Source: Microbacterium sp. JZ31
GTDB lineage: Bacteria > Actinomycetota > Actinomycetes > Actinomycetales > Microbacteriaceae
Assembly (NCBI RefSeq): GCF_016805985.1
Contig: NZ_CP017661.1
Coordinates: forward strand, 1,798,001 to 1,862,000
Reading direction: 5' to 3'
DNA: 64,000 bases
Shown: positions 44,135 to 50,887 of the stretch, one piece after another
Position numbering within the stretch: position 1 is the first letter of the stretch
How the letters are laid out: each line of letters opens with the position of its first letter
Notes under the pieces: generated by a model
What the model was told of the DNA's origin: nothing
Database searches by the model: none
Seen by the model: only the letters and a program-made list of their open reading frames with translations
Translations under genes and position numbers: made by a program

Positions 44135-45502
44135 TCAGCCGACGACGTCGAAGTCGGCGCCGAGCGCCGTCAGCTTCTCGAAGAACTTCTCGTAACCGCG
44201 GCGGATGATGCCCACACCCGACACGCGCGACGTCCCCTCGGCCGCGAGGGCCGCGACCACGTAGCTGAACCCGCCGCGCAGGTCGGGCACGACGATGTCG
44301 GCGCCGCGCAGCGGCGTCGGGCCGTTGATCACGGCTGCCTGCTCGAGCGCGCGGCGCGGCACGCGTCGGTACTCGCCCTCGATGCCGTGCTCGTGCACGA
44401 CGATGTCGGCGCCCATCTGCACGAGCGCACGCGTGAATCCGAGGCGGTTCTCGTACACGGTCTCGTGCACGACGGACTGCCCGTTCGCCTGCGTCAGGGC
44501 GACGATCAGCGGCTGCTGCCAGTCGGTCATGAAGCCGGGGTGCACGTCCGTCTCGACCGTGATGGCCTTGAGCGGCGCCGAGCCGCGGCGGAAGCGGATG
44601 CCCTCGTCGGTGATGTCGAAGTCGCCGCCGACCTTGCGGTACACGTTCAGGAACGTGAGCATCTCGTACTGGCGGGCGCCGCGGACGAAGATGTCGCCGT
44701 CCGTGGCCAGCGCGGCGCACGCCCACGACGCGGCCTCGTTGCGGTCGAACAGCGACCTGTGGTCGTAGCCGCGCAGCTCGTCGACGCCCTCGATGAAGAT
44801 CACGCGGTTGGGCTCGTAGGAGATGATCGCGCCCATCTTCTGGAGCACGCCGATGAGATCCATGATCTCGGGCTCGATCGCCGCGTTGCGCAGCTCGGTC
44901 ACGCCCTTCGCGCGCACGGCCGTGAGCAGCACCTGCTCGGTCGCGCCGACGCTCGGGTACGGCAGCTCGATGTGCGCACCGTGCAGGCCCTCCGGGGCCG
45001 ACAGGCGGATGCCGCTGGGCTGCTTGTCGACGATCGCGCCGAACTTGCGGAGCGCATCGAGGTGGAAGTCGATCGGGCGGTCGCCGATGCGGCAGCCGCC
45101 GAGGTCGGGGATGAACGCCTGGCCGAGCAGGTGCAGCAGCGGTCCGCAGAACAGGATCGGGATGCGCGACGAACCCGCGTGCGCGTCGATCTCCTCGAAG
45201 TTCGCCGACTTGGCGTCGGACGGGTCGAGCACGAGCGAGCCGGGCTCGTCGCCGTCCGAGACGTGCACGCCGTGCACCTCGAGCAGCGAGCGCACCACCT
45301 CGACGTCGCGGATGTCCGGGACGTCGCGCAGGATGCTCGGGGTCTCGCCGAGGAGGGACGCGACCATCGCCTTGGTGGCGAGGTTCTTCGCGCCGCGCAC
45401 GTCGACCTGACCCTTGAGCGCCCGCCCCCCGCGGATCTCGAGGACTTCACCCGACGCGTATGCCGGAGTGCCGGGAGTTTTGGCGTCGCCGATCAGAGTC
45501 AT
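44135..45502 (-). CDS. murA: UDP-N-acetylglucosamine 1-carboxyvinyltransferase
   Basis: A 455-residue EPSP-synthase-fold enzyme, the first committed step of peptidoglycan synthesis (UDP-GlcNAc + phosphoenolpyruvate). VDVRGAKNLATKAM is the substrate-binding start (KN motif). The catalytic Cys lies in LGGCRIGDRPIDFHL, and the fosfomycin-target Cys is kept. LPYPSVGATEQVLL is the next block. It is rather long for MurA because of an N-terminal tail of about 20 residues. ATG 45502 precedes the family start. Confidence 0.93.
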   Translation of the reverse strand: MTLIGDAKTPGTPAYASGEVLEIRGGRALKGQVDVRGAKNLATKAMVASLLGETPSILRDVPDIRDVEVVRSLLEVHGVHVSDGDEPGSLVLDPSDAKSANFEEIDAHAGSSRIPILFCGPLLHLLGQAFIPDLGGCRIGDRPIDFHLDALRKFGAIVDKQPSGIRLSAPEGLHGAHIELPYPSVGATEQVLLTAVRAKGVTELRNAAIEPEIMDLIGVLQKMGAIISYEPNRVIFIEGVDELRGYDHRSLFDRNEAASWACAALATDGDIFVRGARQYEMLTFLNVYRKVGGDFDITDEGIRFRRGSAPLKAITVETDVHPGFMTDWQQPLIVALTQANGQSVVHETVYENRLGFTRALVQMGADIVVHEHGIEGEYRRVPRRALEQAAVINGPTPLRGADIVVPDLRGGFSYVVAALAAEGTSRVSGVGIIRRGYEKFFEKLTALGADFDVVG

Positions 45503-45560
45503 GTGGTGGTGCCTCACTAGGGATCGCGCGGCGGTGAGCCGCTTGCTGTTTCGAGGCGTT

Positions 45561-45583
45561 GCGGGGCCTCGTCGAGACCCCGC
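45561..45583 (-). terminator. Possible terminator after leuD
   Basis: GCGGGG (45561-45566) and CCCCGC (45578-45583) pair around a CCTCG/CGAGA-like inner stem with one mismatch. The hairpin starts 5 bases past the leuD stop and is 58 bases before murA. Confidence 0.45.
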
Positions 45584-45588
45584 CAGGC

Positions 45589-46185
45589 TCACGAGACGGG
45601 TGTCGTCCGCGGCCGCCACGCCTCGCGGCGGGCCTCGAACTGCGCGATCCTGTCTTCGTTGCGCAGCGTGAGCCCGATGTCATCGAGCCCTTCGAGGAGC
45701 CGCCACCTAGTGTAATCGTCGATGTCGAAGGCGGCCGTGAAGTCACCCAACGTGGCGGTTCGCGACACGAGGTCGACCGTCATCTCGACGCCCGGCTGGG
45801 CCTCGATGGCTGCCCAGAAGCGCTGCGTGTCGTCCTCCGAGATCACACCGGTGACCAGTCCCTGCTTGCCGGAGTTGCCCCGGAAGATGTCGGCGAACCG
45901 CGGGCTCAGCACGACCTTGAACCCGTAGTCGCGCAGCGCCCACACGGCGTGCTCGCGGCTCGATCCGGTGCCGAAGTCGGCACCCGCGACGAGGACGGAG
46001 GCCGCGCGGTACGGCTCCTGGTTCAGCACGAACTCGGGGTCCTGCCGCCAGCCGTGGAACAGCGCGTCCTCGAAGCCGGTCTTGGTCACGCGCTTGAGGA
46101 AGACCGCCGGGATGATCTGGTCGGTGTCGACGTTCGAGCGCTTCAGCGGTGCCGCGGTGCCGGTGTGCGTGGTGAACTTCTCCAT
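45589..46185 (-). CDS. leuD: 3-isopropylmalate dehydratase small subunit
   Basis: A 198-residue aconitase swivel-domain protein. [26 protein letters not shown] opens the protein, with the [13 protein letters not shown] loop and [11 protein letters not shown]. With LeuC it isomerises 2- to 3-isopropylmalate in leucine synthesis. The start is 1 base after the leuC stop, so translation is coupled. Confidence 0.97.
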
Positions 46186-46186
46186 G

Positions 46187-47656
46187 TCAGGCCTCCGCCC
46201 CGGTCGTCTCCAGCTGCGCGTCGGCCGCGTCCACGTCGGACGGGCTCGACAGCGTGCCGCGGATCGCCGTGGCGGCCGCGACGAGCGGCGACACCAGGTG
46301 GGTGCGCCCGCCCTTGCCCTGCCTGCCCTCGAAGTTGCGGTTGCTCGTGGAGGCGCAGCGCTCCCCCGGCGCGAGCTGATCCGGGTTCATGCCCAGGCAC
46401 ATCGAGCAGCCGGCGAACCGCCACTCGGCCCCGAAGTCCTTGACGATCCGGTCGATGCCCTCGGCCTCGGCCTCGAGTCGCACGCGGGCGGATCCGGGGA
46501 CGACCATCACGCGCACGCCGTCGGCCTTCTTGCGTCCCTTGATGATCGACGCGAAGGCGCGCAGGTCCTCGATGCGGCTGTTCGTGCACGAGCCCATGAA
46601 GACGGCGTCGACGGGGATGTCCTTCATCGGCGTCCCGGGCTGCAGGTCCATGTACTGCAGCGCGCGCTCGGCCGCGGCCCGCTCGTTGGCGTCGGCGATG
46701 TCCGCCGGCGTCGGGACGACGTCGCTCAGCGACACGCCCTGGCCGGGGTTGGTGCCCCACGTCACGAACGGCTCGAGCTCGTTGGCGTCGATGAACACCT
46801 CGGCGTCGAACACGGCGCCCTCGTCGGTGGGCAGCGTGCGCCAGTACGCGACGGCGTCGTCCCAGTCCTGTCCCTGCGGGGCGTGCGGCCGGCCCTGCAG
46901 GTAGGCGAACGTGGTCTCGTCCGGCGCGACCATGCCGGCACGCGCGCCGGCCTCGATCGACATGTTGCAGATCGTCATCCGGCCCTCCATCGAGAGCGAC
47001 CGGATGGCGCTGCCGCGGTACTCGAGCACGTAGCCCTGCCCGCCGCCGGTGCCGATCTTGGCGATCACAGCCAGGATGATGTCCTTCGCCGTCACGCCGG
47101 GCTTCAGCTCGCCCTCGACCGTGATGGCCATGGTCTTGAACGGCTTGAGCGGCAGGGTCTGCGTCGCCAGCACGTGCTCGACCTCGCTCGTGCCGATGCC
47201 GAAGGCCATGGCGCCGAACGCGCCGTGCGTCGAGGTGTGACTGTCACCGCACACGACCGTGATTCCCGGCATCGTCAGGCCCAGCTGCGGGCCCACCACA
47301 TGGACGATCCCCTGCTCCTTGTCGCCCAGCGAGTGCAGGCGCACGCCGAACTCGGCGGCGTTGCGGCGCAGCGTGTCGATCTGGGTGCGGCTCGTCAGGT
47401 CGGCGATCGGCTTGTCGATGTCGATCGTCGGGGTGTTGTGGTCCTCGGTCGCGATCGTGAGATCGAGGCGGCGCACCGGGCGCCCCTCGGCGCGGAGCCC
47501 GTCGAAGGCCTGCGGGCTCGTGACCTCGTGCACCAGATGCAGATCGATGTAGATCAGGTCGGGCTGGCCGTCTTCGCCCTTGACCACGAGGTGGTCGTCC
47601 CAGACCTTCTCGGCCAGGGTGCGCGGGCGGTCGGGGATGCTGCTGATATCGCTCAT
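46187..47656 (-). CDS. leuC: 3-isopropylmalate dehydratase large subunit
   Basis: A 489-residue [4Fe-4S] aconitase-family protein. The cluster ligands are in GSCTNSR and [10 protein letters not shown], and the substrate loop [13 protein letters not shown] is present. ATG 47656 has GGAGAAG 4 bases upstream. That Shine-Dalgarno is exactly complementary to the Leu-codon run of a leader peptide encoded about 90 bases earlier, which points to translational attenuation of leuCD by leucine supply. Confidence 0.97.
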
Positions 47657-47660
47657 TGCT

Positions 47661-47753
47661 CTTCTCCAGGGGTTCGCGTTGTCGGCCTGCGCGACGGACT
47701 CCGCGACGGGGAGAGGCCTAGAAGAGGATCCCGTCGCGGCGCAGAAGGAGAAG
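47661..47753 (-). promoter_or_regulatory. leuC attenuator region (anti-SD/SD pairing and 10-bp hairpin)
   Basis: In the minus-strand RNA, CTTCTCC (47753-47747, inside the Leu codons) is fully complementary to the leuC Shine-Dalgarno GGAGAAG (47667-47661). Immediately after the Leu codons, CCGCGACGGG (47739-47730) pairs perfectly over 10 bp with CCCGTCGCGG (47710-47701). A ribosome stalled at the Leu codons would cover the anti-SD and disturb the hairpin. The regulation itself is inferred from this layout. Confidence 0.68.
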
Positions 47754-47771
47754 GACTCCGGCGAACCGCAT
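47718..47771 (-). CDS. leuL: leu leader peptide (17 codons, four consecutive Leu)
   Basis: ATG at 47771 encodes [17 protein letters not shown] followed by TAG: five Leu in 17 residues, four of them consecutive (codons CTT CTC CTT CTG at 47753-47742). TAGGCT lies 6 bases before the ATG and there is no Shine-Dalgarno, so the transcript probably begins at this ATG. Leader peptides rich in the end product are the classic sign of attenuation. Placed 61 bases before leuC. Confidence 0.75.
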
Positions 47772-47777
47772 GCCGCA

Positions 47778-47783
47778 AGCCTA
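47778..47783 (-). promoter_or_regulatory. Leaderless -10 hexamer for leuL-leuCD
   Basis: TAGGCT on the minus strand, 6 bases before the leader-peptide ATG at 47771. Confidence 0.6.
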
Positions 47784-47832
47784 GCATCCTGCATCGGATA
47801 GGGCCGTCCGGGGACCAGAGTGCACAGACGAA

Positions 47833-47875
47833 GGCGGCGCGGAGGTCCCGCCTCTCAGCAGAACTCCGCGCCGCC
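47833..47875 (-). terminator. Strong terminator hairpin after terC
   Basis: GGCGGCGCGGAG (47833-47844) and CTCCGCGCCGCC (47864-47875) form a perfect 12-bp stem with a 19-base loop, 25 bases past the terC stop. TTCGTCTGT follows in the transcript direction. Confidence 0.7.
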
Positions 47876-47900
47876 TATCAGATTGCGCAGCGCCCGGGGG

Positions 47901-48899
47901 TCAGCGCTCAATCGACTCGCGACGACGCTCGCGCGAGGACGCGGCCAGGCTCGCGATCGTCGCGACACCCACCGAGAGCACGATGACGGCCAGCGACACC
48001 CAGTTGTTGATCTCGGGCGCCCAGTCGACGTGCTCGCCGCCGTTGATGAAGGGCAGTTCGTTCACGTGCAGCGCGTGGAAGAACAGCTTCAGACCGATGA
48101 AGCCGAGGATGAACGCCACGCCGTAGTGCAGGTAGCGCAGCTTCTCGAGCAGGTCGCCCAGCAGGAAGTAGAGCTGGCGCAGACCCATGAGCGCGAAGAT
48201 GTTCGCGGTGAAGACGATGAACGGGCTCTGGGTGAGGCCGTAGATCGCGGGGATCGAGTCGACCGCGAAGATCAGGTCGGTCACGCCGATTGCGATGAAC
48301 ACCAGCAGCATCGGCGTGAAGAAGCGCTTGCCGTCGATCGTGGTGCGCAGCTTGTTGCCGTCGTACTGGTCGCTGATGTCGATGAAGCGACGCAGGAACC
48401 GCACGATCGCGGTCTCCTCCTTCTTGTCCTCGTCGTGCTTCTCCGGCATCGCCTGGCGGATCGCGGTGAAGACCAGCCACGCGCCGAAGATGTAGAAGAT
48501 CCAGGAGAAGTTCTCGATCAGCGCCGCGCCGAGCATGATGAACGCGGCGCGCAGCACGAGCGCGATGATGATGCCGATCATCAGCACCTCCTGCTGCAGC
48601 TTCCGCGGCACGGAGAACTGGGCCATGATCAGCACGAAGACGAAGAGGTTGTCGATCGACAGGCTGTACTCGGTCAACCAGCCGAGCAGGAACTCCTGCG
48701 CCGGCTGGCCGCCGGCGAAGAAGAACATCAGCAGCGCGAAGATCAGCGCCAGGACCACGTAGAAGACGACCCAGAGGGTCGATTCCTTCGTCGAGGGGAT
48801 GTGCGGCCGCTTCAGGATGAGCAGCAGGTCCGCGACGAGGATCAGCGTCAGCACGACGAGCGATCCCACCTCGAACCAGACGGGAAGAGCGAGGTCCAT
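47901..48899 (-). CDS. terC: TerC-family membrane protein (manganese/metal export type)
   Basis: A 332-residue integral membrane protein with about nine hydrophobic segments. The two acidic family motifs are present: SLSIDNLFVFVL and LIFAVDSIPAI. TerC/Alx proteins export Mn2+ or load it onto exoenzymes, and are often controlled by a manganese riboswitch; the upstream region has just such a fold. GGAAAGG stands 6 bases before the ATG. It has its own promoter and terminator, a one-gene unit. Confidence 0.93.
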   Translation of the reverse strand: MDLALPVWFEVGSLVVLTLILVADLLLILKRPHIPSTKESTLWVVFYVVLALIFALLMFFFAGGQPAQEFLLGWLTEYSLSIDNLFVFVLIMAQFSVPRKLQQEVLMIGIIIALVLRAAFIMLGAALIENFSWIFYIFGAWLVFTAIRQAMPEKHDEDKKEETAIVRFLRRFIDISDQYDGNKLRTTIDGKRFFTPMLLVFIAIGVTDLIFAVDSIPAIYGLTQSPFIVFTANIFALMGLRQLYFLLGDLLEKLRYLHYGVAFILGFIGLKLFFHALHVNELPFINGGEHVDWAPEINNWVSLAVIVLSVGVATIASLAASSRERRRESIER

Positions 48900-48942
48900 T
48901 CAGGGCCTTTCCGGTACGGCCTCGTCGAGGCGCGACAGTTCT

Positions 48943-49038
48943 CGAGAGTCTCTCCCCGCGTTCGACCGCGGTGCGGCCCGGGACCCCACCGTCGAAGTCC
49001 GTGATGACGAGCGCGCGCTGACGGGATACTCCCTCTCG
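48943..49038 (-). ncRNA. yybP-ykoY (manganese) riboswitch candidate upstream of terC
   Basis: In the minus-strand RNA, CGAGAG (49038-49033) pairs with CTCTCG (48948-48943) as P1. Inside P1 the sequence opens with GGGAGTA, and the internal conserved GTCATCAC is at 49008-49001. The closing part is GGGGAGAGAC (48958-48949). These are the sequence blocks of the yybP-ykoY Mn2+ aptamer as I recall it, in the right order and 44 bases ahead of a gene of the class it controls. The remaining RNA (to 48900) would be the expression platform. A covariance-model search would decide. Confidence 0.75.
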
Positions 49039-49046
49039 CAGGCTCC

Positions 49047-49052
49047 AGGATA
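49047..49052 (-). promoter_or_regulatory. -10 hexamer for the riboswitch-terC transcript
   Basis: TATCCT on the minus strand, 8 bases before the start of aptamer stem P1. No clear -35 box is seen. The rest of the gap up to the sigma gene at 49233 shows nothing else recognisable. Confidence 0.4.
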
Positions 49053-49232
49053 CCGGCCGCGTGTCCGTTCCCCTTCGCGTCGCCGAAATCCGCCTGACGC
49101 CTCGCGCCCCGACCCGCGCGGCGTCCGTCGGCGAACCGAGACGATGCGTCCGCTGCGGACACTGACAGAGTGAGAGACGACGGCGGCCCGCCGGCTCGTC
49201 GCCGCACGCAGACGCCCCGCAGGACGGACACG

Positions 49233-49781
49233 ATGGAGATCTCCGGCACAGACGACGCCGCGCTGGTCGCGCGCGCCGCGGACGGGAGCGAGCAGGCGTT
49301 CCGGCAGCTGTACCGCCGGCACGTGCGCCCCGTCTACTGGATCGCGCACGGGCTCCTCCACTCCGCGGCCGACGCCGAGGACGTGGTGCAGGAGACCTTC
49401 GTCGTGGCCTGGCGAAAGCTCTCCGGCTTCGAACTCGCCGGAGAGTCGCTCCTCCCCTGGCTCGCGACGATCTGCCGGTTCCAGGCGGCGAACCGCCTGC
49501 GCGCGCTGCGGCGTGCGGAGGCGGACGAGCTGGACGAGCGCTCCCCCGCCGCCTTGGACGTGGAGCAGCAGGTGATCGACGCCGACCTGGCCGAGCGGGT
49601 CCTCCAGGCGGTCGACGGCCTGAGCCCGCTCGACCAGCGCATCTTCCGGCTGTGCGTCGGCGAGGGCTACGCCTATCAGGCCGCGGCCGACGAGCTCGGC
49701 GTGGCGCACGGCGTCGTGCGCAATCGTCTCTCCCGCATCCGCACGAGACTGCGGACCGTCGTGAGAGAGGAGGCGTCATGA
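49233..49781 (+). CDS. ECF-type RNA polymerase sigma factor
   Basis: A 182-residue sigma-70 family protein. Region 2 has AFRQLYRRHVRPVYWIAHG and the sigma2 core ADAEDVVQETFVVAWRKL. Region 4 has SPLDQRIFRLCVGEGYAYQAAADELGV, where the helix-turn-helix is expected. ATG 49233 follows AGGACGGA; an upstream GTG at 49170 is less likely. The stop overlaps the next gene by four bases, so it is coupled to a DUF4349 membrane protein that may act as its partner. Confidence 0.9.
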   Translation: MEISGTDDAALVARAADGSEQAFRQLYRRHVRPVYWIAHGLLHSAADAEDVVQETFVVAWRKLSGFELAGESLLPWLATICRFQAANRLRALRRAEADELDERSPAALDVEQQVIDADLAERVLQAVDGLSPLDQRIFRLCVGEGYAYQAAADELGVAHGVVRNRLSRIRTRLRTVVREEAS

Positions 49782-50887
49782 ACACGGATATGAAGGATGA
49801 GCTGCCCGACGTGTCCGACGAGACGCTCGCCGGCATCGAGGACCGGGTGTTCCGGGTCATCGCCGAGGAGCGCGGGTCGCGATCGTCCGCCGCGAAGCGA
49901 CGGCGGCGCGTCTGGCAGACCGTCGGCGTCGCGGCCGCCCTCGTGACCGTCGCGGCCGTGATCTCACCCGCCGTGCTGCAGGGCGTGAGCGGGAGCGGAA
50001 GCTCGGTGATGTCCGAGGGCGGCGCGGTGAACGAGGCGCCCGTCGCGCCGGACGCGTCCGGCGGCGACGCCGCCGAATCGGCGGAGGAGTCGGCGCCGGG
50101 TGCGGAGAGCGCCACGCCCGGCGACCGCGGGGCGGTGACCGATCCCCTCGCCGAGCAGGAGATCGTCCGCACCGCATCGGCGAGCATCGTCGTCGACGAC
50201 CCGGCGCAGGCCGCCGAGGCGATCGTGACGCTCGCATCCGCGCACGGGGGCTGGGTGGAGCAGCTGTCGATCGGCGCGGATCAGTCGTTCACCGGCCCGG
50301 CGGAGACGGGCGGAAGCGCGTGGGTGCCGGACGAGGGCGGCTACGTCACCGTGCGCGTGCCGGTGGATCGGCTGGATCCGGTCATGGAGCAGCTGGATGA
50401 GATCGGCGAGGTCGCGAGCACGCAGGTGGGCACCGAGAACGTCACGGCGCAGGCCGTCGACCTGCGGGCCCGGATCGATGCGGCGCGCGCCTCGGTGGAG
50501 CGGCTCACACAGCTGCTCGCCGAGGCGGGCAGCGTGGGCGATCTCGTGCAGGTCGAGAGCACGCTGTCCGAGCGGCAGGCCGAGCTCGAGTCGCTCGAGC
50601 GTCAGCTGGAGAGCCTCGAGAGTCAGGTCGCGATGTCGACGCTGTCCGTGTCGCTCCAGCGCGATACGCCGCCCGTCGACCCGGACCCGGCGGGCTTCGG
50701 CGACGGCCTGGAGGCGGGCTGGAACGGTCTGCTCACGGCGGTGAACGGAACCGTGGTCGCGATCGGATTCCTGCTGCCGTGGATCGCGGTGCTCGCCGTC
50801 GTCTGGCTGGCGGTGTGGGGCATCCGGCGTGCGCTGCGCCGGCAGCGTCTCCGGAGAGCGGAGGCACGCGGGCCCGGAAGCAGCTGA
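49778..50887 (+). CDS. DUF4349 membrane protein coupled to the sigma factor gene
   Basis: A 369-residue protein. A cytoplasmic acidic N-terminus of about 45 residues (DELPDVSDETLAGIEDRVF) precedes a first membrane helix (VGVAAALVTVAAVISPAVL). A low-complexity Ala/Glu/Gly/Pro linker follows, then the DUF4349 extracytoplasmic domain with a strong coiled coil (residues about 228-285), and a second helix (VAIGFLLPWIAVLAVVWLAVW) near the C-terminus with a basic tail. The layout (sigma gene, then a membrane protein with a short cytoplasmic N-terminus) resembles an anti-sigma arrangement. The N-terminus does not look like a zinc anti-sigma domain, so that role is a guess. Confidence 0.85.
   Translation: MNTDMKDELPDVSDETLAGIEDRVFRVIAEERGSRSSAAKRRRRVWQTVGVAAALVTVAAVISPAVLQGVSGSGSSVMSEGGAVNEAPVAPDASGGDAAESAEESAPGAESATPGDRGAVTDPLAEQEIVRTASASIVVDDPAQAAEAIVTLASAHGGWVEQLSIGADQSFTGPAETGGSAWVPDEGGYVTVRVPVDRLDPVMEQLDEIGEVASTQVGTENVTAQAVDLRARIDAARASVERLTQLLAEAGSVGDLVQVESTLSERQAELESLERQLESLESQVAMSTLSVSLQRDTPPVDPDPAGFGDGLEAGWNGLLTAVNGTVVAIGFLLPWIAVLAVVWLAVWGIRRALRRQRLRRAEARGPGSS

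Follow-up and report, generated by a model that had tools for sequence, protein, structure and literature searches.

The closest described relative of the leader analyzed here is the actinobacterial LEU element, which was reported before leuA and consists of a leader open reading frame (ORF) that carries several Leu codons in a row, a pseudoknot, and a base stem whose strands are this Leu run and the Shine-Dalgarno sequence (SD) (Seliverstov et al. 2005; PMC1262725); the element is not defined by its position in that report, in which a copy in a transposase gene is also named. Its mechanism was not settled at the time: the effects of mutated Leu codons in S. coelicolor (Craster 1999, as reported in PMC1262725) were not those of classical attenuation, and the mutant data fit neither this nor a riboswitch. 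The authors favored a protein-binding RNA for the leuA element, and proposed Rho for other leaders. Excerpts of two further reports describe the leuA leader LeuL1 of Streptomyces lividans, with a leaderless transcript start mapped by RNA-seq and no typical terminator (PMC8079986), and a putative leader of leuA in C. glutamicum that contains four Leu codons (PMC4046766). In the mycobacterial leaderless polycysteine ORFs (Canestrari 2020), as far as described in excerpts of PMC9031893 and PMC13236596, downstream translation depends on cysteine supply.

The window, i.e. the whole stretch of 64,000 nt from Microbacterium sp. JZ31 that was analyzed, contains a leader of this type on its minus strand upstream of leuC (46187..47656, minus strand; ORF read from the ATG at 47656-47654, relatives 75-93% identical), directly downstream of which lies, by ORF position, a gene (45589..46185, minus strand) that we take from its sequence to be leuD. 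The leader ORF (47718..47771, minus strand) comprises 17 codons (ATG CGG TTC GCC GGA GTC CTT CTC CTT CTG CGC CGC GAC GGG ATC CTC TTC TAG, 47771-47718) with four consecutive Leu codons (CTT CTC CTT CTG, 47742..47753), as the original prediction had it, to the base. The Leu run is the 5' strand of the base stem and the leuC SD (GGAGAAG, 47661..47667, minus strand) its 3' strand; the full complementarity claimed for the two is exact on the minus strand, where CTTCTCC (47753-47747) pairs with GGAGAAG (47667-47661) over 7 bp. The Leu run is followed by a hairpin with the 5' arm CCGCGACGGG (47730..47739, minus strand) and the 3' arm CCCGTCGCGG (47701..47710, minus strand), both supported by the sequence and by conservation, and the stop codon of the leader ORF lies within the hairpin loop. 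The arms are perfect 10-bp complements at the positions predicted, though the stem starts 2 nt past the last Leu codon and not directly after it. A -10-like box TAGGCT (47778..47783, minus strand), with TG two bases 5' of it, ends 6 nt 5' of the leader ATG and suggests a leaderless start, so that the earlier label 'leaderless-type' fits; no complete two-hexamer sigma-70 promoter was found before the leader.

Three features go beyond the original prediction: a pseudoknot of 5 bp between GGCCT in the hairpin loop (47714..47718, minus strand) and its complement AGGCC in the 3' flank (47684..47688, minus strand), a second copy of the element at leuA in the same genome, and a predicted extension of the base stem past 7 bp, for which CGCGAA (47673..47678, minus strand) pairs with 47746-47740 in the minimum-energy fold, in which the Leu run and the SD are paired as well. 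Further upstream, between the end of an ORF that we take to be TerC-like and the leader promoter, there is a 13-bp inverted repeat (AGGCGGCGCGGAG / CTCCGCGCCGCCT, 47832-47876, minus strand), which is perhaps the terminator of the TerC-like gene and which is absent from the list of the terminator scan.

Judged by its sequence, the leuC leader belongs to the actinobacterial LEU elements. Its upstream ORF carries a Leu run, of four codons in the window; its hairpin loop can form a pseudoknot with the 3' flank, over 5 bp in the window; and its Leu run makes up a base stem with the SD, with 7 exact base pairs in the window and coevolution as described below. The leader is also homologous to the leuA copies, which are found by a model (R1) built from leuC leaders only. 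It shares with the leuA element of PMC1262725 the Leu-run ORF, the pseudoknot, the base stem, and the lack of a terminator, whereas that element sits at leuA and in a transposase gene and the copy in the window sits at leuC. The peptide of LeuL1 as given in the excerpt of PMC8079986, MRFGLLLLSCRGEGL, contains a Leu run like that of the leuC leader, but LeuL1 precedes leuA. The polycysteine ORFs in the excerpts of PMC9031893 and PMC13236596 are leaderless leaders with a run of one codon and a functional parallel to the putatively leaderless leuC leader, for cysteine in place of leucine. The design itself has thus been known since 2005 for leuA, the same layout including the base stem having been published in PMC1262725, and the novelty that the original prediction saw in it does not hold; the location at leuC is absent from PMC1262725. 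No leader before leuC in Microbacteriaceae is reported in the literature searched, which is weak evidence of absence as most subscription journals lie outside it; as far as this literature shows, the leuC location and the covariation of codons and SD are new.

We regard a leader-peptide translational switch as the best explanation of the LEU element at leuC(D), and as a probable one. Transcription would start at or next to the leader ATG, and the leaderless leader ORF would be translated first. When leucine is plentiful, the ribosome would read through the Leu codons, reach the stop in the hairpin loop, and leave; the hairpin and the pseudoknot would then place the vacated Leu run beside the leuC SD, and the run would pair with the SD and shut leuC translation. 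When charged Leu-tRNA is scarce, the ribosome would sit on the run, which could then not pair, and the SD would be free. Leaderless initiation, stalling at leucine shortage, and control at the level of translation are what we infer, and the sensing of Leu-tRNA is a putative function of the run in the same way.

An intrinsic terminator was not found in 47600-47920 (none listed by the terminator scan), in agreement with the terminator-free design of the original prediction. Classical attenuators (mycobacterial ilvB, trp, and Streptomyces leuS), according to PMC1262725 and an excerpt of PMC13236596, have codons for their pathway in the leader peptide, as here, but use an intrinsic terminator, and the absence of one from 47600-47920 speaks against a classical transcription attenuator. 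Control of transcription might also be exerted through leader translation acting on Rho-dependent termination, or on pausing of RNA polymerase, ahead of leuC; the leader ORF and a strong hairpin exist, and Rho has been proposed for other leaders (PMC1262725), yet the run tracks the SD, which termination would not need, and together with the missing intrinsic terminator this makes such control quite improbable. A match to Rfam 15 was not obtained on the element, either in 45000-50000 of the window (E up to 10) or in five loci (E up to 1); identity with an Rfam family was rejected, as there were only sub-threshold matches and none of them was on the element.

The window sequence alone proves little, because the fold energy is ordinary and CTTCTCC is frequent: the leader folds modestly better than its shuffles (z -1.24, with 24 of 200 shuffles equally good), and the window contains 15 copies of CTTCTCC where 5.2 are expected. 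CTC and CTT Leu codons are anti-SD-like by nature, and the 7-mer complementarity is by itself weak evidence. It is the comparative data, i.e. conservation, the TANNNT box before the start, and the covariation with the SD, that raise the element above chance.

For the leuC locus, the best 80 of 597 leuC matches in named genomes were compared, of which 27 (L001-L027) were taken from their titles to be Microbacteriaceae. The architecture is present before leuC in 19 of these 27 loci, in genera including Microbacterium, Leifsonia, Agromyces, Glaciibacter, Leucobacter, Cryobacterium, Terrimesophilobacter, and Rathayibacter; the other eight family loci (Curtobacterium, Frigoribacterium, Salinibacterium, two Agrococcus, Rhodoluna, and two further members) were found to be without the element, which counts against the proposed switch. 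Several of these element-less loci (L011, L017, L018, L020, L022, L023, L025, L027) have a leuC that starts with M-G-K/R-T-L-A. The remaining 53 of the best 80 loci also lack the element (top score 19.7 bits). Model R1 was built from the 19 family leuC leaders and the one in the window, so that on these 80 loci only its negatives are informative.

In the genome of Microbacterium sp. JZ31, R1 matches leuA with 77 bits and leuC with 71 bits, and the next match has 20 bits; within Microbacteriaceae, 388 of 398 genomes are matched. A set of 80 genomes was drawn from those with an R1 match and comprises 78 genomes from different genera together with G323 and G397, which have many matches; of the 85 genus representatives (G000-G084), G005, G012, G015, and G065 (no match) and G044, G061, and G081 (match) were left out. 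The 151 R1 matches in this set are distributed over leuA (87), leuC (56), and other positions (8), which corresponds, in a set chosen among matching genomes, to an element at leuA in 79 and at leuC in 56 of the 80 genomes. By eye, the eight other matches (E 6e-5 to 0.0093) look like chance, perhaps with the exception of L321 (G323:C1:3335015-3335094, plus strand), a weak match (E 6.8e-5) that has a TAGGAT box, a hairpin, and a short ORF starting at an ATG and containing CTG CTT CTT; the ORF behind it is MFS transporter-like by eye, and L321 may be a LEU-like leader of a transporter gene. A further 20 matches in 15 genomes, from 55 matches in 20 multi-match genomes, are located before leuA or a second leuA-like gene (14) or before leuC (6). 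The second leuA-like genes carry a variant element with the arm CCACGGCGGGG or similar, often with a longer pseudoknot (GACCGGC with GCCGGTC), at L317-L320, L352, L353, L355, L358, L361, L362, L364, L366, L368, and similar loci.

In a sample of the phylum, 74 of 396 genomes match R1, nine of them in Microbacteriaceae, and the leuC copy looks like an addition of the Microbacteriaceae because all 21 loci examined outside the family are leuA. The nearest neighbor of a leuC copy is a leuA copy for 34 and another leuC copy for 21 of the 55 leuC copies; this pattern fits a derivation of leuC copies from leuA copies, and neither proves nor dates it.

The anatomy of the element was examined over 142 leaders (87 leuA and 55 leuC; from 143, the leuC locus L304 was dropped for lack of a usable gene start). 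A TANNNT box 3-10 nt before an in-frame start is present in 142 of the 142 leaders against 12 of 2840 random positions, and at 6-7 nt from an ATG or GTG in 139 of 142 (null 1 of 2840). The first in-frame stop falls inside the hairpin loop in all 139 leaders with a recognized 3' arm (the other three were excluded); the corresponding counts for the other frames are 4 and 2 of 139. At the three modeled positions of the run, CTT makes up 257 and CTG 10 of 415 Leu codons, compared with 3.5% CTT and 45% CTG among the 3626 Leu codons of the first part of the genes, and the third of these positions holds CTT in all but one of the 142 leaders. The pseudoknot helix is longer with the own than with the crossed partner in 29 of 55 genomes and shorter in 16 (p=0.007); own helices are also slightly longer than those with shuffled tails (4.9 vs 4.5), and a first version of the test, based on energy, gave p=0.037. 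The check for loss of the Leu run and of the complementarity in close relatives, which had been named as refuting the original prediction, did not refute it.

The sequence of the hairpin arms is nearly invariant, beyond what mere pairing would explain, as might be expected if a regulatory protein bound the hairpin and pseudoknot and controlled access to the SD, the Leu peptide then not being the sensor. The S. coelicolor mutant data speak for such a protein, which the authors of PMC1262725 prefer for leuA, naming a DEAD-box-like protein that co-occurs with the element. A protein site would need neither the conserved frame with -10 box, start, and stop in the loop nor a Leu run preserved as CTC and CTT codons, and we consider this explanation unlikely next to the leader-peptide switch.

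For the base stem, a within-genome cross test was used in which the leader of each leu gene was paired with its own SD and with the SD of the other leu gene; base composition and genome descent are common to each such comparison, and gene starts had been picked by SD score and start codon, blind to the leader. Among 55 two-copy genomes, a 12-nt stretch (the run plus 3 nt) pairs more strongly with its own SD in 38 and more weakly in 13 (Wilcoxon p=1.7e-5). With the 9-nt run only, the counts are 34 and 10 (p=4.7e-4); a sample of one genome per genus gives 36 to 13 of 53 (p=3.5e-5). Three controls show no significant preference (p=0.24 for the 5' part of the leader, 0.44 for the 5' arm, and 0.69 for the run vs -60 to -40), but the 13 nt that end at the first base of the run also favor their own SD (p=0.04). 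Three of the four one-sided cross comparisons are significant, and that of the leuC leader with its own vs the leuA SD is not (p=0.10). Pairing of leader and own SD also beats swaps between genomes, and none of 200 shuffles reaches it, for either gene.

Covariation at silent sites was examined with a register chosen without the two wobble positions, for 78 of 120 eligible leaders (22 of the 142 runs are not CTYCTYCTT, and 42 leaders had no unique register at the threshold). CTC codons face G, and CTT codons A, more often than expected: CTC faces G in 38 cases and A in 24, CTT faces G in 19 and A in 39 (odds ratio 3.25, one-sided p=0.0015), and permutation within gene class gives p=0.001, the genomes being related and these statistics ignoring the tree; 36 of 156 wobble sites face a pyrimidine. 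These are the compensatory changes of codons and SD across Microbacteriaceae for which the original prediction had suggested looking. By the decoding rules, CTC and CTT are read by one tRNA. Changes between them leave the peptide unaltered and are therefore a sign of pairing at the RNA level. Contingency between the pair of bases that follows the third codon of the run and CTRAG or CGRAG near the SD is weak or absent (leuA p=0.53, leuC 0.07, together 0.016).

The complementarity of run and SD might still be a by-product of a conserved RNA, any CTC/CTT run pairing with any SD; swapped pairs of leader and SD do pair well (mean -8.2 to -8.7 kcal/mol), and the frequency of CTTCTCC in the window and the fold z-score are of the kind expected then. 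This explanation is already disfavored and, in our view, highly improbable, as own pairing exceeds swapped and crossed pairing and the silent sites covary. Coevolution of the Leu run with its own SD is well supported by these comparisons; comparison of sequences also shows the element itself, the leader ORF with the position of its stop, the hairpin, and the pseudoknot.

The proposed switch was also examined by folding, with nested structures only (the pseudoknot being ignored) and with ribosome footprints masked. In the model, a ribosome on the run leaves the SD more open than one at the stop does in 32 of 55 leuC leaders, and less open in 8 (p=1.2e-5); the corresponding numbers for leuA are 51 and 14 of 87 (p=2e-7). 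A pairing probability of SD and run of at least 0.5 is predicted for 37 of 55 leuC and 64 of 87 leuA leaders when unoccupied. The mean for the unoccupied leuC leader of the window is 0.83, and the proposal that the Leu codons act as a lock on the SD thus gains from this model as well as from the coevolution of the stem. The window copy is predicted to barely open, however, with the SD free at 0.17 when unoccupied, 0.24 with a stalled ribosome, and 0.28 with a ribosome at the stop, and for the leuA copy of the same genome, with a poor SD, a lock of run and SD of only 0.008 is predicted. This leuA leader (L193, G000:C1:1580803-1580881) has a full Leu run, MRLGGLLLLSRRDETSI, and the leuA start codon at this locus may be another one. 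We keep the stem apart from the sensing because the S. coelicolor mutants do not fit classical attenuation and because the window and leuA copies model poorly.

With leuC(D), a further locus joins the genes that carry a LEU element. We somewhat favor the wider reading that the element is a terminator-free attenuator in which the sensor codons are also the lock, that the choice of CTC or CTT is tuned to each target SD, and that the module was copied from leuA to leuC in Microbacteriaceae, where each of two unlinked loci would be controlled through a codon lock matched to it. Genomes with two copies whose SDs differ are common in Microbacteriaceae and constitute an internal control for the stem of codons and SD; this control lets the coevolution of the stem be shown, and synonymous changes of the Leu codons provide a clean experimental handle.
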